Of a DNA stretch of 64,000 nt, positions 12,441 to 57,025 are shown piece after piece; position 1 is the first letter of the stretch; each line of letters begins with the position of its first letter. Origin of the DNA: Clostridia bacterium (GTDB lineage: Bacteria > Bacillota > Clostridia > Peptostreptococcales > Acidaminobacteraceae); assembly GCA_018399635.1 (NCBI GenBank), contig JAGYOH010000006.1:62001-126000 (forward strand), read 5' to 3'. A model generated the notes under the pieces. The model did no database searches and was not told the DNA's origin. It worked only from the letters and a program-made list of their open reading frames with translations. The position numbers were made by a program, and so were the translations under genes.

Positions 12441-12446
12441 GGCCTA

Positions 12447-12710
12447 AAGCGATGAAGAGAAGAGTAGATTGTTTCAAGGTGATAGAGAGCCTGGGAAGGG
12501 TGGAAACCGGGCACTGAGAATGATTGAAGATGGCCTCTGAGCAGAGTGGATGAGCCTCTCTACCGGCAAATCCCTACGGTTGAGTGACCCCGTTATCGGT
12601 ACAGTGTCGTAAACACAAAGAGGCTTTCAGAGGAATCTGAGAGTGAATTAGGGTGGTACCGCGAATAGCTTCGCCCCTAGGGCTGAAGGTATTTTTTTAT
12701 TTTTTGCAAA
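12447..12710 (+). promoter_or_regulatory. T-box leader, methionine specific
   Basis: The leader has the conserved T-box AGGGTGGTACCGCG (12650-12663), which pairs with the acceptor end of uncharged tRNA, and a Stem I with GGCCTCTGAGC after the specifier. An ATG at 12530-12532 in the expected specifier position matches methionine and the downstream metG. A terminator stem (TTCGCCC / GGGCTGAA with one bulge) and a T-rich run to 12705 follow. Uncharged tRNA-Met should favour the antiterminator and raise expression of metG and probably tatD-rnmV-rsmA. Confidence 0.92.
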
Positions 12711-12723
12711 GAGGTGATTAGAA

Positions 12724-14634
12724 ATGAGCAAAGGAACCTATTATTTGTCAACCCCCATTTATTATCCCAGTTCAAAGCTGCATATCGGCCATACCTATAC
12801 CACGGTGGCGGCGGACGTGCTTGCCCGGATCAAAAGGGCCCAGGGCTATGAGGTCATGTTCATGACCGGCACTGATGAACACGGGGAAAAGATACTCAAC
12901 GTGGCCAAGGGAAAAGGATTGGAGCCCAAGGTGTATCTCGACCAGGTGGTCTCTGAAATCAAGGACCTCTGGGAAACCATGGAGATTTCCTACGATCACT
13001 TCATCCGTACGACGGACGAATACCATGAAAAGGCCGTACAGGAGATCTTTCAAAGGCTTTACGACAAGGGGGACATCTACAAGGGGGAGTACGAGGGCTG
13101 GTACTGCACACCCTGCGAGTCCTTCTGGACGGAATCCCAGCTCAAGGAGGGTCGTTGTCCGGACTGCGGCCGCGAAGTGGATAAAACCAAGGAAGAGACC
13201 TATTTCTTCAGACTGTCCAAATACCAGGATCGGCTCCAGAAACTTCTGGAGGAGACGGATTTTCTCCTGCCGAGAAGCCGGGTGAATGAGATGATCAACA
13301 ATTTCATCAAACCGGGGCTGGAGGATCTTTCCGTGAGTCGCACCAGCTTTGACTGGGGCATCAAGGTGCCCTTTGACGACAAGCATGTCATTTACGTGTG
13401 GATCGATGCCCTGAGCAACTACATCACCGGCCTTGGTTACCCTGAGGACAAGGGGGGGCTCTATGAAAAATTCTGGCCCGCCGACGTGCATTTTGTCGGG
13501 AAAGAAATCGTCCGCTTCCACACCATCATCTGGCCGGCGATTCTCATGGCCCTGGATGAGCCGGTGCCCAAAAGAGTATTCGGCCACGGCTGGATTCTTC
13601 TGGAGGGAGGCAAGATTTCCAAATCCAAGGGCAATGTGGTGGACCCGGTGGTCCTCATCGAGCGCTATGGCGTGGATGCCCTCAAGTACTTTCTGATGAG
13701 GGAATACACCTTTGGTCAGGACGGCCTCTTCACCAATGAAGTCCTGCTCAACCGGCTGAACTCCGACCTTGCCAACGACCTGGGCAATCTGGTCAGCCGG
13801 ACCATCGCCATGATCAAGAAATACAACGGCGGCACCATCGAAAAATCCGATTTTGTCACGTCTTTTGATGAAGGGTTGAAGCATCTGGGCACCGGCACCA
13901 AGGAAAAAGTGGCCGCCCATATCGATGAGATGGCCTTCAGTCACGGTCTGGAGGAAATCTGGAAATTCGTCGCCAGAACCAATAAATATATTGATGAAAC
14001 CACCCCCTGGATCGTGGCAAAGGATGAAAGCCGCAAAGCGGAGCTCAGGACCATTCTCTACAATCTGGCGGAGAGCATCCGGATCATCAGCGGTCTCATC
14101 AACCCCTTCATGCCTCATACCGCGGAGAAAATCTTCAAGGCCTTCAATATGGCGGAGGAACTCAAAGAATGGGATGCCACCACCACCTTCGGCCTGCTGC
14201 CTGACCAGACCAGGGTCAATGATCTCGAGGCGCTTTTCCCGAGGATTGACGTGGCGGAGGAATTGAAATACCTGAACAGCCTCAGCCAGCCCCAGGAGGA
14301 GAAAATCGAATTCAAGGAAGAAGTGACCATTGACGATTTCGACAGACTTGATCTCAGAGTGGCCAGGATCATTGGTGTAGAAAAGCATCCCAAGGCGGAC
14401 CGGTTGCTGGTCATCCAGCTGGAGGTGGGCAATACCAGGAGACAGGTGGTCTCCGGCATTGCCGAGCATTTCGAACCCGAAGCCCTGATCGGCCGGCAGG
14501 TGATTCTGGTCGCGAACCTGAAACCGGTCAAACTCAGAGGGATTGAAAGCCAGGGAATGATTCTGGCGGCAAGCCACGACAAGGCCCTCAAACTACTGAC
14601 TGCAGATATTGAATCCGGAACCCCGGTCACTTAA
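12724..14634 (+). CDS. metG: methionyl-tRNA synthetase
   Basis: This 636-residue class I synthetase charges tRNA-Met. HIGH is at residues 20-23 (KLHIGHTYTT) and KMSKS appears as KISKSKGNVV near residue 298. A zinc knuckle is formed by CTPC and CPDC around residues 127-147. The anticodon-binding helical domain follows, and the last ~110 residues are an EMAP/Trbp111-type tRNA-binding OB fold (FDRLDLRVARIIGVEKHPKADRLL) used for dimerisation. The length matches Bacillus-type MetS. It is the first gene behind a methionine T-box and is followed within 11 bases by tatD, an order also found near the origin in Bacillus. Confidence 0.97.
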   Translation: MSKGTYYLSTPIYYPSSKLHIGHTYTTVAADVLARIKRAQGYEVMFMTGTDEHGEKILNVAKGKGLEPKVYLDQVVSEIKDLWETMEISYDHFIRTTDEYHEKAVQEIFQRLYDKGDIYKGEYEGWYCTPCESFWTESQLKEGRCPDCGREVDKTKEETYFFRLSKYQDRLQKLLEETDFLLPRSRVNEMINNFIKPGLEDLSVSRTSFDWGIKVPFDDKHVIYVWIDALSNYITGLGYPEDKGGLYEKFWPADVHFVGKEIVRFHTIIWPAILMALDEPVPKRVFGHGWILLEGGKISKSKGNVVDPVVLIERYGVDALKYFLMREYTFGQDGLFTNEVLLNRLNSDLANDLGNLVSRTIAMIKKYNGGTIEKSDFVTSFDEGLKHLGTGTKEKVAAHIDEMAFSHGLEEIWKFVARTNKYIDETTPWIVAKDESRKAELRTILYNLAESIRIISGLINPFMPHTAEKIFKAFNMAEELKEWDATTTFGLLPDQTRVNDLEALFPRIDVAEELKYLNSLSQPQEEKIEFKEEVTIDDFDRLDLRVARIIGVEKHPKADRLLVIQLEVGNTRRQVVSGIAEHFEPEALIGRQVILVANLKPVKLRGIESQGMILAASHDKALKLLTADIESGTPVT

Positions 14635-15963: not shown

Positions 15964-16827
15964 ATGAAAAAGGTATCCCTTTCAGAAAAAATCAAAGAAA
16001 TCACCCTGGCTCACGGTTTCAGAATGTCGAAATCCCTTGGTCAGAATTTTTTGAAGGACCCCGAGGTTCTGGCGAATATCATCCAGGCCGCCCATCTGAA
16101 GACTGAGGACACGGTGGTGGAGGTGGGTCCCGGCATAGGGGTCATGACCCAGGCCATCGCCCGTGAGGCCGGACGGGTAGTGGCCATCGAGATCGACAAG
16201 GGCCTGATTCCGATTCTGGAAGAAACCCTGGAGGCCTATCCCGGTGTTGAAATCATCCATGAAGATATTCTCAAGGTGAACCTCGAGGAACTTCAGGGTC
16301 GCTGTTTTCCCGGAATCGCGCCAAAAGTCATCGCGAATCTTCCCTATTACATCACCACTCCCATCATCATGCATTTTTTGGAGTCCGCCATGAGCTTTCA
16401 ATCCATGATCGTCATGATGCAGAGGGAGGTGGCGGACCGGATCATGTCGGGACCGGGACACAAGACCTATGGGACGATTTCCGTAGCGGTGCAGTATTAC
16501 ACCAGGGTGGAGAAGGTGATGGAGGTTCCCAGGGGCGCCTTCCTGCCGGAACCCAAGGTGGATTCCATGGTGATCAGGCTGACGCCCCACCCGGTACCTC
16601 CGGTGGCACTCGATGACCACGACCATTTTTTCAGAACCATCAAGGCGGCCTTCAGTACCAGGAGAAAAACCCTTCTCAACGCCCTCAGCAACCATTTTGA
16701 CAAGGCCCTGGTGGCCAGGGCCCTGACGGAAGCCGGAATCGATCCTGTCAGAAGGGGAGAAACCCTGAGCATTGAGGAGTTCGCCCGCCTGAGCAACAGC
16801 CTTTATCGCATCAAAAAATCGTCCTAG
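15964..16827 (+). CDS. rsmA: 16S rRNA (adenine1518/1519-N6)-dimethyltransferase
   Basis: This 287-residue KsgA/RsmA enzyme dimethylates two adjacent adenines near the 3' end of 16S rRNA. The first region is KSLGQNFLKDPEVLANII. The SAM-binding motif I is VVEVGPGIGVMTQAIA, and the catalytic motif IV is ANLPYYITTPI. The C-terminal helical domain contains FFRTIKAAFSTRRKTLLNAL. The ATG at 15964 immediately follows the rnmV stop. Its stop codon is embedded in the terminator shared with recU. Confidence 0.95.
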   Translation: MKKVSLSEKIKEITLAHGFRMSKSLGQNFLKDPEVLANIIQAAHLKTEDTVVEVGPGIGVMTQAIAREAGRVVAIEIDKGLIPILEETLEAYPGVEIIHEDILKVNLEELQGRCFPGIAPKVIANLPYYITTPIIMHFLESAMSFQSMIVMMQREVADRIMSGPGHKTYGTISVAVQYYTRVEKVMEVPRGAFLPEPKVDSMVIRLTPHPVPPVALDDHDHFFRTIKAAFSTRRKTLLNALSNHFDKALVARALTEAGIDPVRRGETLSIEEFARLSNSLYRIKKSS

Positions 16828-16841
16828 AGGGACGATTTTTT
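16813..16841. terminator. bidirectional terminator containing both stop codons
   Basis: AAAAATCGTCC and GGACGATTTTT form an 11 bp stem. The loop CTAGAG carries the TAG of rsmA on the plus strand and of recU on the minus strand. Confidence 0.9.
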
Positions 16842-17363
16842 ATATGTGAGGTATTCGTTGAGCACCGGCAGGTAATTCAGAATTCCGGCGACTTCCCTCC
16901 GGATCCTGAAACGGGGTTCCATGGCCGTGTAGGGGATGGACCGCCGCCCCTTGTTTTTGGAAGCGGTGAAATAGGCCTCGATCTGTTCAAAGGGAATCAG
17001 ATAGTATTCGTCACAGAATTTGAAGTGAACGATGATGAAGGCAAGACCGCCCTGGTAGGTGAAATCCTTCATGTAGGTCACCTGGTGCTCGTGGATATTG
17101 TAAAGGGGGAGGTTCTTGAGATCGGTCTCCTTGGCATCGAAGGCCACGGGAATCCCCTGGACGATGCCGATGAAGTCCACGGTGGACTTTTTTTCAAAAA
17201 AACCCTTGGTGATCATTCCCCCCTGATCGATTTCCACCACCTTGATGGGTGTGCTGGCCTTGTCGATGAGGGCATACAGATGGTTCTTGTAATATTCATT
17301 GGTCAGGAGGAGCAGATCCTCCAGGGCATCTCCCCGATGACCTCTTGTTCGCCAAACCGTCAT
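16824..17363 (-). CDS. recU: Holliday junction resolvase RecU
   Basis: This 179-residue nuclease belongs to the RecU family, which resolves recombination intermediates in Firmicutes. The catalytic core is KSTVDFIGIVQG then VAFDAKETD (about residues 60-85), with the conserved Asp and Glu. The stretch HQVTYMKDFTYQGGLAFIIVHF is also typical. A longer open frame exists upstream, but the ATG at 17363 has GAGGTG at good distance and gives normal family length. It is convergent with rsmA and is not linked here to a penicillin-binding protein gene, unlike in Bacillus. Confidence 0.9.
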   Translation of the reverse strand: MTVWRTRGHRGDALEDLLLLTNEYYKNHLYALIDKASTPIKVVEIDQGGMITKGFFEKKSTVDFIGIVQGIPVAFDAKETDLKNLPLYNIHEHQVTYMKDFTYQGGLAFIIVHFKFCDEYYLIPFEQIEAYFTASKNKGRRSIPYTAMEPRFRIRREVAGILNYLPVLNEYLTYKKSSL

Positions 17364-17568: not shown

Positions 17569-17597
17569 TTGACAAAACCCCGATAGATGAATAGAAT
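17569..17597 (+). promoter_or_regulatory. promoter of the selenoprotein-glutaredoxin pair
   Basis: TTGACA and TAGAAT with a 17-base spacer sit 36 bases before the selenoprotein start. Confidence 0.75.
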
Positions 17598-17632
17598 AAT
17601 CAAAGACTATAAAAAAGTTCAGGGAGGATTTC

Positions 17633-17938
17633 ATGTCGATTCAAATCTCCGAGAGTGCCGTCAGGCGCATCAAGGAAATCCTGGCCGAAAGAAAAGAACA
17701 GGACGATCGATACGTTAGAATATTCCTGAAGGGATTTACTTGAGGGGGGCCGAGTTTCGGCATTTCTCTGGATGAGAGATACAAAGAGGACCTCGTATTT
17801 AATCAGGATGAAATCCGGTTCGCAGTAGAAGAATCACTTTTAGAGGATTATAAAGACTTTGAAATCGACTATTCCGATAATCGCTTGTCCAGTGGTTTTT
17901 TAGTCAGAGCCAGATGGGCTCCCCAAAGTCAATGTTGA
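17633..17938 (+). CDS. HesB-like (IscA-type) selenoprotein, UGA read as selenocysteine
   Basis: One frame opens with ATG (17633, preceded by AGGGAGGATTTC) and runs to TGA at 17936-17938, interrupted only by TGA at codon 37 (17741-17743). Reading that codon as Sec gives 101 residues. The local context FLKGFT-U-GGPSFGISLDE matches the region around the first conserved cysteine of A-type iron-sulfur carriers (IscA/HesB). The C-terminus has SSGFLVRARWAP and a final Cys. HesB-like selenoproteins are known in anaerobes. Right after the UGA, GCCGA-GTT-TCGGC (17749-17761) can form a small hairpin with a G-starting loop, as needed for a bacterial SECIS, although its loop is nearer the UGA than usual. 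A glutaredoxin follows 13 bases later. A sequencing error or nonsense mutation is the alternative, but conservation on both sides argues against decay. Confidence 0.85.
17744..17775 (+). promoter_or_regulatory. candidate bacterial SECIS element
   Basis: The stem GCCGA/TCGGC encloses the triloop GTT, with possible extension by flanking GAG/CTC pairing. It begins directly after the in-frame UGA at 17741. The UGA-to-loop distance (about 10 bases) is shorter than in well-studied elements, so the exact fold is uncertain. Confidence 0.5.
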
Positions 17939-17951
17939 GGAGGATTAAGAA

Positions 17952-18179
17952 ATGAAGAATGTTGTGATTTACACCAGCAATACCTGTGGGTATTGTCATG
18001 CGGCAAAGAAGTTTTTGGATTCCATGAGTGTCTCCTATACGGAAAAGAACGTTTCTGTGGATGCTGAAGCCAGAAAAGAACTGATCCAAAAGGGATTCAT
18101 GGGCGTTCCTGTGATCATCGTCGATGAAGAAGTCGTACAAGGCTTTGACAAGGTAAAATTACAGGAGTTGCTGGCCTAG
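17952..18179 (+). CDS. glutaredoxin-like protein
   Basis: This 75-residue thioredoxin-fold protein of the glutaredoxin/NrdH class has the redox motif CGYC near residues 12-15 (YTSNTCGYCHAAKKFL), a cis-proline loop GVPVIIVDEE and the terminal GFDKVKLQELL. Its length equals that of Clostridial YruB-type glutaredoxins. It sits 13 bases after the HesB-like selenoprotein and shares its promoter, suggesting that it reduces that protein or cooperates in iron-sulfur or selenium chemistry. A strong terminator follows. Confidence 0.9.
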   Translation: MKNVVIYTSNTCGYCHAAKKFLDSMSVSYTEKNVSVDAEARKELIQKGFMGVPVIIVDEEVVQGFDKVKLQELLA

Positions 18180-18190
18180 TCAATAATGAA

Positions 18191-18220
18191 CCCCCTTCTC
18201 AATGAGAAGGGGGTTTTTTA
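18191..18220 (+). terminator. terminator after the glutaredoxin gene
   Basis: CCCCCTTCTC and GAGAAGGGGG with loop AAT are followed by seven T residues. Confidence 0.9.
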
Positions 18221-19027: not shown

Positions 19028-20656
19028 ATGAGTATGTTTTGTTATCAGTGTCAAGAGACTGCCAGGAATCAGGGGTGTACGGTCAGGGGTGTCTGCGGCA
19101 AGCCCTCGGATGTGGCAAATCTTCAAGACTTGTTGATTTATTTATCCAAGGGACTGGCCAGGGTGAACGTCATCGCCGAGAAGAACCAGGTCAAGCATCC
19201 GAGAATAGCCATCGCTCTCAAGGACAACCTCTTCACCACCATCACCAATGCCAACTTCGATAAAGAGGCGATTGTCAAAAAAATCAATACGACCCTGGAT
19301 TTGAGGGAGGCTCTCAAGAAGGAACTCCAGCTCGGTGATGAGGGGATGCCTGATGCCGTGACCTGGATTTCCAGGGATGTCAAGGCCATGGAGGCAAAAG
19401 CCGGGACCATCGGAGTGCTTTCCATCGAGGATGAGGACGTCCGGTCCCTCAAGGAACTCATCACCTACGGGCTGAAGGGAATCGCCGCCTACGGCGAACA
19501 CGCCTACAACCTCCATGAGATCGACGAAGAGGTGGACCATTTCATTCAAGACACCCTGTCCCTGCTCCTCGATGACGTTTCAGTGGAAGATCTGATCGGG
19601 CACACCTTGAAAACCGGCGAATGCGGTGTGAAGGTCATGGCCCTCCTTGACAAGGCCAATACCCGGGCTTATGGCAGCCCGGAGATCACCCAGGTGAACA
19701 TCGGCGTCAAGAATCTTCCGGGTATTCTGGTCAGCGGCCATGATCTCAAGGACTTTGAAATGCTGCTGGAGCAGACCAAGGACCAGGGCATCCACATCTA
19801 CACCCACAGTGAAATGCTTCCCGCCAACTACTATCCCAGGTTCAAGCAGTATGAACACTTTGTCGGCAATTACGGGAATGCCTGGTGGCAGCAGGACAAG
19901 GAATTCGATACCTTCAAGGGTCCCATATTGATGACCACCAACTGCATCGTGCCGGTGAAGGACAGCTACAAGGACCGGATCTACACCACGGGCTCTGCCG
20001 GATATCCCGGCGTGCCCCACATCGAGGCGGATGAAAAGGGTTACAAGGACTTCAGCGTGATCATCGAGCAGGCGAAAATATCCCAGTCCCCCGTCGAAAT
20101 TGAAAAGGGGACCATCACGGGCGGCTTCGCCCATGATCAAGTGGTGAAACTTGCCGACAAAATCGTGGATGCCGTCAAAACCGGTGCCATCAAGCAGTTC
20201 TTCGTCATGGCCGGCTGTGATGGCCGGATGAAGTCCAGGGACTACTATACCCAGTTTGCCCGGGCGTTGCCCAAGGACACCGTCATTCTAACCGCCGGCT
20301 GTGCGAAATACCGATACAACAAGCTTGATCTCGGGGACATCGGCGGTATTCCCAGGGTGCTTGATGCAGGCCAGTGCAACGATTCCTATTCTCTGGCGGT
20401 CATCGCCCTCAAGCTCAAGGAAATCTTCGAGCTCAATGATATCAACGAGCTGCCGATTTCCTACAATATCGCCTGGTATGAGCAGAAAGCAGTGATCGTT
20501 CTCCTGGCCCTGCTCAGTCTGGGTGTCAAGGATATCCACCTCGGGCCGACCCTGCCCGCCTTCCTTTCCCCGAACGTGGTCGATGTGTTGGTAGAGAATT
20601 TCGGGATTGCAGGCATCACGGATGTTGAAAGTGATCTGAAAATATTTTTGGGTTGA
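19028..20656 (+). CDS. hcp: hydroxylamine reductase / hybrid cluster protein
   Basis: This 542-residue metalloprotein carries a cubane Fe-S cluster and the hybrid Fe-S-O cluster. Family members reduce hydroxylamine in vitro and nitric oxide in vivo. The N-terminus [17 protein letters not shown] contains the cubane ligands in the short C-x2-C spacing of anaerobes. Later blocks [43 protein letters not shown] and [16 protein letters not shown] contain hybrid-cluster ligands. No hcr reductase gene follows, but rubredoxins and NADH-linked flavoproteins are nearby. Expression is probably driven by the divergent Crp/Fnr protein. Confidence 0.96.
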
Positions 20657-20904: not shown

Positions 20905-22650
20905 ATGTCAAAGAAAGTAATCGTCGTAGGCGGTGTTGCGGGTGGTGCCACAGCAGTAGCCCGTCTCAGAAGAGTCGATGATCATGCCGAGATCATCATG
21001 ATGGAAAAGGGTGAATTCATTTCCTTTGCGAACTGCGGTTTACCTTATTATGTGGGTGGGACCATCGAGGATAGGGAGTCCTTGCTGGTACAGACCCCGG
21101 AAGCGATGGAAAGTCGATTCAACGTTTCAGTCAGGACCTTCAATGAGGTCACCCGAATCGACAGGGAACAAAAGCTCGTCGAGGTCAAGAATCTGAAAAC
21201 CGGCGACAGCTATGAGGAAAGCTACGACACCCTGCTGCTTTCACCGGGCTCGGTACCGCTGAAACCACCGATTCCAGGAATCGACGCCCCCAATATTTTC
21301 ACCCTCTGGACGATTCCGGATGTGGATCAGATCAAAAGCTATGTGATGGAGAACGATATCAAGGAGGTTGCCGTCATCGGCGGTGGATTCATTGGCATCG
21401 AAATGGCGGAAAACTTCAGAGAACTCGGCATCAATGTGACCATCGTGGAAATGCTCGACCAGGTCATGGCGCCAATTGACTTTGACATGGCTCAGATCGT
21501 TCACCAGCATCTCAAGGACCACGGGGTCAATCTGGTACTGGGTGACGGGGTCGATCATTTTGAAAATGAAGGCAAGCAGACAGCCGTGGTCCTCAAAAGC
21601 GGCAACAAGGTCAAGGCGGACATGGTCATGCTGTCCATCGGCGTCAGACCCCAGACGGAACTGGCAAAGGCCGCCGGTCTCGAGGTGGGACCCAGAGGAC
21701 ATATCGTGGTGGATGATTACATGATGACCAGTGATGAGAACATCTACGCCATCGGAGACGCCATCGAGGTGGTGGACTACATCACCAAGACCAAAACCGC
21801 CGTTCCTCTGGCGGGACCTGCCAACAAGCAGGGCAGAATCGCAGCCAACAACATTCTTGGCGACAAGAAGGAAAAATACAAGGGGACTCAGGGAACCTCC
21901 ATTGCCAAGGTTTTTGATATTTCCGTGGCTTCGACGGGTCACAATGAAAAAATGCTCAAGCGCAACGGCCTGGAACTCAGAAAAGATTATCTGAAGATGG
22001 TCCTGCATCCCAAGCACCACGTGGATTACTATCCCGGTGCAGAGGCTATGACTCTGAAGGTGCTATTCGACAAAGCAGGCAAGATTCTCGGAGCCCAGGG
22101 TATCGGCGGAGAAGGTGTGGACAAGCGCATCGATATCATCGCCACCGCCATCCGTTTCGGTGCGACGGTCTATGATCTCAAGGAACTTGAACTGGCTTAT
22201 GCACCTCCCTACAACGGTGCCAAGGATCCTGTGAACTTTGTAGGTTTCTTCGGCGAAAATATTCTTGAAGGCATGATCGATCTGGTCTTCGCCGACGAGG
22301 TGATGGACCAGGATATGGAAAACACCATCTTCCTGGATGTCAGGGGTCCTGAAGAGGTGGCGGCAAGAGGGAAAATCGCCGGCTCTGTGAATATTCCCCT
22401 CGGCGTGTTGAGGGATCGACTGGGCGAGCTCGACGCTTCCAAGAAAATCATCGTTTACTGCATCATGGGAGTTTCCGGCTATGTGGCCAGCAGGATCCTG
22501 ATGCAGAATGGCTTCAATCAGGTCTACAACCTTGCCGGTGGCTATCAAAGCTATTCCATCGAATTCTGCCAGGAGGGATCCGACCTCAGCAGTTGCGGTG
22601 GTCGCGTTTATGAAAAAGCCGAATTCACCGAAGCCGGTGAAGCGGAGTAG
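20905..22650 (+). CDS. CoA-disulfide reductase / polysulfide reductase with C-terminal rhodanese domain
   Basis: This 581-residue flavoprotein begins with a dinucleotide fold (VVGGVAGG, residues 7-14) and the single redox cysteine Cys44 in SFANCGLPYYVGG, diagnostic of CoA-disulfide reductases and related NADH oxidases. A second dinucleotide fold lies near residue 155 (VAVIGGGFIGIEMAE). The last ~110 residues are a rhodanese domain with active-site Cys519 in VYCIMGVSGYVASR. Such CoADR-RHD fusions (for example Npsr in Shewanella) reduce CoA persulfides or polysulfide, which fits other sulfur-transfer genes here. It is monocistronic, with AGGAGG before the ATG and a hairpin after the stop. Confidence 0.92.
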   Translation: MSKKVIVVGGVAGGATAVARLRRVDDHAEIIMMEKGEFISFANCGLPYYVGGTIEDRESLLVQTPEAMESRFNVSVRTFNEVTRIDREQKLVEVKNLKTGDSYEESYDTLLLSPGSVPLKPPIPGIDAPNIFTLWTIPDVDQIKSYVMENDIKEVAVIGGGFIGIEMAENFRELGINVTIVEMLDQVMAPIDFDMAQIVHQHLKDHGVNLVLGDGVDHFENEGKQTAVVLKSGNKVKADMVMLSIGVRPQTELAKAAGLEVGPRGHIVVDDYMMTSDENIYAIGDAIEVVDYITKTKTAVPLAGPANKQGRIAANNILGDKKEKYKGTQGTSIAKVFDISVASTGHNEKMLKRNGLELRKDYLKMVLHPKHHVDYYPGAEAMTLKVLFDKAGKILGAQGIGGEGVDKRIDIIATAIRFGATVYDLKELELAYAPPYNGAKDPVNFVGFFGENILEGMIDLVFADEVMDQDMENTIFLDVRGPEEVAARGKIAGSVNIPLGVLRDRLGELDASKKIIVYCIMGVSGYVASRILMQNGFNQVYNLAGGYQSYSIEFCQEGSDLSSCGGRVYEKAEFTEAGEAE

Positions 22651-53672: not shown

Positions 53673-53724
53673 AGATTTTTACCCGGCAAAGCCGAAATGT
53701 GTTATAATACCCTTGTCAATTGAA

Positions 53725-53885
53725 TAGCAGTTTTCTGGTTGTCCCGATGGACATAAGAAGGAAGCCCGGTGAAATTCCGGCACGGTCCCGCCACTGTAAA
53801 AGTCGAACAGACTTGAAGTCAGATACTTGCCAGTTAACCGAGTTACACAATTCTCACGAGGATGGGAACGTGCTTTAAAATATTT
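53725..53885 (+). promoter_or_regulatory. cobalamin riboswitch 1
   Basis: Conserved core elements are GGTGAAATTCCGGCACGG, CCCGCCACTGTAA, a box near AGTCAGATACTTGCC, and a 3' part with the ACGAGGATGGG-like end. The element precedes btuF-btuC-btuD-like genes. A terminator follows at 53892-53917. Confidence 0.92.
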
Positions 53886-56821: not shown

Positions 56822-56837
56822 AAGAGCGAATGAATCA

Positions 56838-57025
56838 GTAGATTCTGGTGTCCATGAGAGACCCAACAAGGGAATTGAGTGAAAATCTCAAGCTGTCCCA
56901 GCAACCGTAAGACGGACGAAAATCACAAGACCACTGTCAGAGGATTGACGGGAAGGGTGATGACTAGGAGGATGTCGAGCCGGTAGACCTGCCAGAATCA
57001 GTTGAGAGCAAACTCCTGGGGATGG
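56838..57025 (+). promoter_or_regulatory. cobalamin riboswitch 2
   Basis: Core blocks AAGGGAATTGAGTGAAAATC, CCCAGCAACCGTAA, CCACTGTC, GACGGGAAGG and GTAGACCTGCC follow each other in the order of a classical cobalamin element. The downstream genes are not a standard biosynthesis set, so the riboswitch is strong evidence that they relate to corrinoids. Confidence 0.93.

Follow-up and report, generated by a model that had tools for sequence, protein, structure and literature searches.

The window, the whole stretch of 64,000 nucleotides analysed here, corresponds to positions 62001-126000 of contig C33 in a 2.36-Mb genome assembly of 36 contigs and 95.55% completeness. It contains a HesB-like reading frame of 102 codons including the stop, which runs in one frame from an ATG at 17633 to a TGA stop at 17936-17938. 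Sequence and translation give the TGA at 17741-17743 as the sole break inside this frame. The single internal TGA and the strong ribosome site of the original prediction are both confirmed. The stop codon is separated by 13 bases from the ATG of a glutaredoxin gene (17952). The promoter-like box, the GGAGG ahead of the HesB-like gene, this 13-base gap and the terminator-like hairpin beyond the glutaredoxin together give the pair the appearance of a two-gene transcription unit. The features of the locus are as follows.

16824-17363, minus strand: RecU, divergent upstream neighbour (PF03838, 177 bits)
17569-17597, plus strand: sigma-70-like promoter TTGACA-17-TAGAAT, 11 of 12 consensus matches, by consensus only
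17623-17627, plus strand: Shine-Dalgarno GGAGG, read from the sequence, 5 nt 5' of the HesB-like ATG
17633-17938, plus strand: predicted gene of a HesB-like selenoprotein of 101 aa, carrying Sec37 in UGGP and Cys101 at the C-terminus
17741-17743, plus strand: in-frame UGA, codon 37 (predicted Sec37), aligned with the first cluster cysteine of IscA
17749-17761, plus strand: first hairpin, GCCGA-GUU-UCGGC, loop 10 nt from the UGA
17762-17780, plus strand: second hairpin, a bSECIS-type stem-loop, AUUUCUC-UGGAU-GAGAGAU, register and pairing conserved across Sec genes
17952-18179, plus strand: glutaredoxin (CGYC), YruB-like (PF00462, 68.1 bits; TIGR02196, 79.9 bits, under the cut-off of 88.55)
18188-18216, plus strand: terminator-like hairpin at the end of the two-gene unit, 13 pairs, loop of 3, T tail
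19028-20656, plus strand: hcp, hybrid cluster protein (hydroxylamine reductase; NF003658, 836 bits), nearby, outside the operon
20905-22650, plus strand: CoA-disulfide reductase-rhodanese fusion (TIGR03385, 512 bits, under 578.8; PF00581, 53 bits)

The whole HesB-like frame scores 28.3 bits against PF01521, over the Pfam gathering score of 26.3, which places it in the A-type/HesB domain family. Homology is found on both sides of the TGA, as had been claimed: the 64 residues after it, taken alone, match NF038090 (E 6.3e-11), and the 36 residues before it give a weak match to PF01521 (E 0.047). Against the same-genus copy L011 (genome G001), dN is 0.30 and dS 1.7 before the TGA and dN is 0.14 and dS 1.8 after it, with dS near saturation in both parts. 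The protein lies below both curated NCBIfam cut-offs (TIGR01911, 52.6 versus 66.35 bits; NF038090, 65.1 versus 85 bits), which are annotation thresholds rather than biological traits, and 9 further homologues with a single-cysteine tail and one with a multi-cysteine tail (defined below) do likewise, making 11 of 11 proteins scored. No table-11 ORF of at least 60 aa occurs in this frame in the ORF list, which together with the sub-cut-off scores is consistent with the expectation that a standard gene caller would miss the gene. Given the 11 low scores, such HesB-like genes may often lack an annotation or carry a wrong one.

Elsewhere in the window there is a T-box leader (12443-12681) just 5' of an ORF at 12724 that by eye resembles a methionyl-tRNA synthetase, and two cobalamin riboswitches (53719-53848 and 56829-57010) lie about 3 kb apart.

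The in-frame UGA and the stem-loops after it

The genome contains the selenocysteine machinery on which the prediction of a 101-residue Sec protein depended. The selC gene, with anticodon UCA, scores 72.6 bits (gathering score 47), and a profile search of the genome placed selB, selA and selD, all over their cut-offs, at C34:79189-83540, the four genes lying together within about 6 kb of that contig. The selD gene itself carries one in-frame TGA. HesB-like homologues are present in 36 of 41 genomes (the genome itself and 40 relatives). An E. coli IscA sequence served as the reference for the first cluster cysteine of IscA. Among the best matches of 30 genomes, the window's own included, 22 of the 30 aligned loci carry TGA in this column and the other 8 carry Cys. 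Neither a missing machinery nor a homologue with a stop or an ordinary non-cysteine residue there was found to speak against the predicted selenoprotein.

Two hairpins follow the UGA. The bacterial SECIS model, as described in PMC13188914, has a small loop 16-37 nt from the UGA with a G in the first two loop positions and an energy of -7.5 kcal/mol or lower. The second hairpin, with a 7-pair stem 19-37 nt after the UGA and the loop UGGAU 25 nt from it, fits this published model in position, loop composition and conservation, while in a constrained scan its energy of -6.9 kcal/mol misses the -7.5 criterion; thus the proposed SECIS element stands as to place and conservation and falls short in energy. 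In the same scan 47 of 69 Sec genes and also 3 of 17 Cys genes attain -7.5 kcal/mol. A 50-nt stretch that takes in the two hairpins folds at -13.6 kcal/mol and is unexceptional by itself (z -1.49; 21 of 200 shuffles fold as well), as is the stretch of the second hairpin alone (z -1.07; 32 of 200). Since the window's own folding energy is unremarkable, the case for the stem-loop is a comparative one.

Of 57 distinct single-tail Sec genes, 52 can form at least 5 of the 7 pairs of the second hairpin, as can 9 of 9 multi-Cys-tail Sec genes, as against 1 of 17 Cys genes, and the mean is 5.84 of 7 pairs in the 57 single-tail Sec genes versus 2.65 in the 17 Cys homologues. Sliding one arm of the stem by 1-3 nt lowers the mean to 2.30-3.63 pairs. 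Permutation of synonymous codons within the same column gives a null of 5.32 (sd 0.06), and 5.84 was reached in 0 of 2000 trials, a result that is no strict probability because the permutation takes no account of relatedness. The outermost pair is often unformed.

The first hairpin overlies the codons of a conserved GGP-x-F-G motif and is also flagged by a terminator scan. Its full set of 5 pairs survives in 10 of the 57 single-tail Sec genes, in 1 of the 9 Sec genes with a multi-Cys tail and in 2 of the 17 Cys genes; 4 or more of the 5 survive in 35 of the 57 single-tail Sec genes and in 7 of the 17 Cys genes. Because of this poorer retention and a loop only 10 nt from the UGA, outside the 16-37 nt of the model, it is the less likely SECIS element, and it may have a helper role (17749-17761). 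It is probably the stem-loop that the original prediction saw just after the TGA: hairpins are indeed present there, but the one that matters is the second and not the nearest.

From these sequence comparisons it is very nearly certain that 17633-17938 encodes a HesB-like selenoprotein of predicted A-type fold, in which UGA37 is read as Sec by means of the stem-loop 19-37 nt downstream and the cell's own SelA, SelB, SelC and SelD. With the known UxGP motif (here UGGP), the predicted product is a new protein of a family already catalogued.

Selenocysteine and the single-cysteine tail

We compared 88 distinct HesB-like proteins, 67 from loci found with HesB and 21 from loci found with the glutaredoxin. 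The loci read were the best match per genome, the best 30 at most for searches with longer lists, together with chosen stretches among the relatives; loci L138-L152 were excluded from all counts. A tail without CxC or CxxC within the last 16 residues was called single. By this definition 59 of the 88 proteins have a single tail, and all 59 have Sec as well as a Cys at most 2 residues from the C-terminus; 58 have one Cys within the last 20 residues and L122 ends in CC. A multi-Cys, CxxC-type tail is found in 28 of the 88, where the motif residue is Cys in 17, Sec in 10 and, in one protein, the Cys of CSGQ. L137 is a diverged homologue that lacks a C-terminal Cys and whose TGA lies in the motif URGA. 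Neither L137 nor the CSGQ protein, one of the copies at L059 (multi-Cys tail, counted in the 28), has U/C-x-GP, and both were left out of the tree.

In the tree of 86 proteins, 57 single-tail proteins group together with support of 98/91, on a short alignment in which many forks are unresolved. The single-tail copies of L030 and L039 fall in another group of the tree, each adjoining a Cys, multi-tail copy at the same locus. Tentatively, a protein that has lost the CxxC tail also uses Sec, and these tandem copies outside the main clade suggest that the two changes may have coincided on more than one occasion. The columns of Sec37 and Cys101 are invariant (30 of 30) in alignment A3, which comprises the window protein and 29 of the 31 HesB genes at glutaredoxin loci, was not selected by tail and omits L076 and L082 as near copies of L074 and L081. 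Alignment A1 was chosen for UGGP without a CxxC tail, hence its invariant Sec is no evidence.

The loci L030, L039, L058 and L120 have two HesB-like copies each, one with Sec and one with Cys, and form natural Sec/Cys exchange pairs. The window's genome has a second HesB-like copy (C35:13474-13734, L051), of the multi-tail CxxC type and with a TGA and stem-loop, whose flanking ORFs by eye resemble a LysR-type regulator and PurL.

The AlphaFold model of the window protein has a pLDDT of 86.9 and its best PDB matches are IscA and SufA, while the C-terminus is poorly predicted (pLDDT of 50 at residue 101). DsrR of Allochromatium vinosum (PDB 2k4z), presumably tied to the dsr sulfur genes, is a weaker fold match (E 1.1e-3). 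A-type Fe-S carriers have three cluster cysteines, C35, C99 and C101 in E. coli IscA, and the window protein has only Sec37 and Cys101. Because the C-terminal Cys pair of IscA is thereby reduced to one Cys, we do not file the protein as an A-type carrier in spite of its predicted fold. The homology to such carriers and the Sec at their first Cys, both in the original prediction, stand, and an ordinary three-cysteine role is doubtful. Since Sec37 and Cys101 are its only conserved chalcogen residues, the protein is likelier to act in redox chemistry or sulfur transfer than as a three-cysteine Fe-S carrier.

The glutaredoxin gene and its surroundings

The closest solved structure to the window glutaredoxin is cGrx1 of Clostridium oremlandii (7c10, E 2.5e-25). 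By profile search of the HesB-found loci, 18 of the 38 single-tail genes and 0 of the 28 multi-Cys-tail genes have a YruB-like glutaredoxin no more than 800 nt downstream, leaving 20 of the 38 single-tail genes without one in that range. The link depends on the search (15 of 21 single-tail genes in the relatives versus 3 of 17 class-wide), and by tblastn a glutaredoxin is 3' of 15 of 19 UGGP single-tail genes at the loci of the relatives search. In the reverse direction, a UGGP gene is found in the fetched flanks of 31 of 46 named glutaredoxin loci, within about 0.75 kb upstream of the glutaredoxin in 30 of the 31. Both genes were placed by profile search; mechanical ORF calls sometimes missed one or the other. 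Conservation of the gene pair supports the predicted link between the HesB-like protein and the glutaredoxin 13 bases downstream.

The pairing is not strict. No HesB gene occurs in the fetched flanks of 15 of the 46 loci, 14 of which have at least 820 nt of upstream sequence (L077 has none), indicating that neither gene strictly needs the other. Family-model matches are found in 11 of these 15 genomes, at 76.5 bits or less. Presence of the Sec machinery does not discriminate among the 46 glutaredoxin genomes, as SelA is over its cut-off in 45 with or without an adjacent HesB gene and the remaining match is partial. At L065 and L066 the glutaredoxin is 89% and 85% identical to the window's, RecU lies upstream and the fetched flank (only 823 nt in L066) has no HesB gene, an apparent loss of HesB in close relatives. 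A glutaredoxin 96% identical to the window's is in a record titled 'delta proteobacterium ML8_F1'; the other named loci are from Clostridia, Clostridiales, Tissierellia and Bacillota, with genera such as Fusibacter, Acidaminobacter and Geosporobacter.

Neighbouring genes were taken as mechanical ORFs clustered by blastp, uncurated. The RecU cluster is present in 26 of the 46 glutaredoxin loci, often in conserved position. In Fusibacter-type loci a longer CoA-disulfide reductase homologue is directly 3' of the glutaredoxin. A gene of this type comes next after the glutaredoxin in 13 of 46 loci, every one with a HesB gene, and a CsoR-family repressor is encoded downstream in 13 of 46, 12 of them in common with the former and all HesB-bearing. 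Rhodanese, TusA and DsrE2 domains are fused in both members of the reductase cluster scanned (L083, L074); that of L082 is cut by the contig end. The window is without this arrangement beside its HesB-glutaredoxin pair, and its own CoA-disulfide reductase lies 2.7 kb past the glutaredoxin, beyond a CRP-type regulator and hcp. Further neighbours include a PLP-enzyme gene in 6 of 46 loci, by eye of cysteine-synthase type, and a hexapeptide-transferase gene in 10 of 46, by eye of serine-acetyltransferase type. A small hydrophobic protein with a Cys motif is encoded between the HesB and glutaredoxin genes in 9 of 31 loci (L087, L089, L096, L098, L099, L100, L102, L103 and L104); of the three scanned, those of L087 and L100 have no Pfam match at 1e-5 and that of L104 has one (given below).

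Proposed function and known systems

We favour, with a probability of about 0.6 for the whole explanation including Sec decoding, a Sec-Cys redox protein that is recycled by the glutaredoxin and possibly handles persulfides. Sec37 would be the nucleophile, acting on a substrate that is oxidised or carries sulfane sulfur. Cys101 at the mobile C-terminus would resolve Sec37 by forming a selenenylsulfide, and the CGYC glutaredoxin, from the same predicted transcription unit, would reduce the Sec37-Cys101 pair, by analogy with the reduction of the selenoprotein MsrA of Clostridium oremlandii by glutaredoxin. A persulfide as substrate is the weakest and a speculative step, suggested by what neighbours the pair in Fusibacter-type loci, the CoA-disulfide-reductase/rhodanese/TusA/DsrE2 enzyme and the CsoR-family repressor. 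Counted against the explanation are the thin class-wide glutaredoxin link, the -6.9 kcal/mol hairpin and the disruption of a HesB-like gene in M. maripaludis, which left nitrogen fixation unimpaired (an unpublished observation cited in an excerpt of PMC11097638). A wider proposal is decidedly tentative: HesB proteins with a single-Cys tail may form an obligatorily Sec-containing branch, in which the A-type fold would have exchanged Fe-S carriage for redox chemistry on sulfane sulfur, and the HesB selenoprotein, the glutaredoxin, the CoA-disulfide-reductase/rhodanese/TusA/DsrE2 enzyme and a dithiol CsoR-family repressor would constitute a selenium-dependent persulfide-handling system of anaerobic Clostridia.

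An unlikely alternative, though the strongest of the others, is a Sec-containing A-type carrier or scaffold in which Sec37 and Cys101, possibly from the two subunits of a dimer, would be the ligands of an Fe-S cluster or of Fe and the glutaredoxin would aid cluster transfer. It would agree with the fold and its IscA and SufA matches, with Sec37 at the first IscA cysteine and Cys101 near the C-terminal ones, and with the partnership of IscA-type proteins and Fe-S glutaredoxins in cluster transfer elsewhere; moreover, 10 of 46 loci have ferredoxin-type (Fer4) genes close to the pair, and the protein between the two genes in L104 matches Fer4_5 (PF12801, a 4Fe-4S domain). However, all 59 single-tail proteins have one tail Cys (two adjacent in L122) in place of CxC/CxxC, the adjacent gene encodes a dithiol CGYC glutaredoxin of cGrx1/YruB type rather than a CGFS monothiol one, and no isc or suf family was found among the neighbour proteins scanned, a minority of the clusters.

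Less probable again is a role in the binding or delivery of a metal(loid) or of a selenium species, with Sec as ligand and the CsoR-family regulator as metal sensor. A His before the second Cys is part of the ligand pattern of copper-type CsoR proteins, and 8 of 13 CsoR-family neighbours keep one, four residues ahead of that Cys; yet it is missing in 5 of 13, whereas the two Cys are conserved in 13 of 13. The copper sensor RicR is the best NCBIfam match, far below cut-off, of two CsoR-type neighbours scanned (the cluster members domain-scanned were L083, L097 and L106), and metal-ligand roles have been suggested for other small Sec proteins (PMC13188914, in excerpt). Against a metal-binding role, the neighbours carry sulfurtransferase and disulfide-reductase domains, and no transporter family was found among those scanned, again a minority of the clusters. 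Finally, a HesB pseudogene made by nonsense mutation, or a contig error, would explain why so short a gene has one in-frame stop and why its 36 codons before the TGA are weak alone. This reading is ruled out because many other genomes, that of the same-genus L011 among them, have their TGA at exactly this column and because selection acts downstream of the TGA (low dN), besides the complete Sec machinery and the conserved stem-loop.

HesB-like selenoproteins have been catalogued since at least 2005 (PMC1088965); a list of 2006 (PMC1794560) includes those of an Alkaliphilus and a Symbiobacterium, and Table 1 of PMC13188914 gives the family with the UxGP motif, each as excerpted. Mutagenesis and 75Se labelling revealed the M. 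maripaludis member (work cited in PMC11097638), and the function of this archaeal protein was called unclear in 2024 in the excerpted text of the same paper. The window protein shares with the known family (TIGR01911) the A-type fold, Sec in UxGP at the first IscA cysteine and a Sec-using host, and differs in its sub-cut-off scores, single C-terminal Cys and glutaredoxin operon. No description of this operon, or of the rule tying Sec to the single-Cys tail, was found in the literature searched, whose coverage did not extend to Haft and Tolstoy 2025. The glutaredoxin neighbour, this tie and the sulfur-handling neighbours make the function of HesB-like proteins testable with two small proteins.

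With IscA, ErpA and SufA the window protein has the fold and a full-length alignment in common, and it differs from them by Sec in place of the first Cys and one tail Cys instead of the C-x-C pair. The window glutaredoxin weakly matches the C-terminal part of the HUGP/GUXX-star fusion selenoprotein (NF045501; 44.3 bits, cut-off 325). The window's HesB-like protein and glutaredoxin are separate genes, and the idea that they are a split version of this fusion ('HesB-UGP') was dropped because the HesB protein has no NF045501 match at E 0.001.

cGrx1 (7c10/7c12) is both the closest solved relative of the window glutaredoxin and a precedent for regenerating a Sec enzyme. C. oremlandii cGrx1 natively contains Sec (PMC7642778), and the MsrA selenoprotein of the same organism is efficiently reduced by glutaredoxin and not by thioredoxin (PMC4479559), both according to excerpts. 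The Sec of cGrx1 is in UPxC, whereas the window glutaredoxin has CGYC, and the substrate here would not be MsrA.

The Fusibacter-type loci also resemble a system of Enterococcus faecalis whose repressor, CstR, we take to be a CsoR-family member. In that organism a rhodanese-domain CoA persulfide reductase is controlled by the dithiol repressor CstR (PMC9405070), in a description whose excerpted text mentions neither a Sec protein nor a glutaredoxin. Common to both are the CoA-disulfide-reductase-rhodanese enzyme and the dithiol repressor, and the two scanned Fusibacter-type enzymes add TusA and DsrE2 domains.
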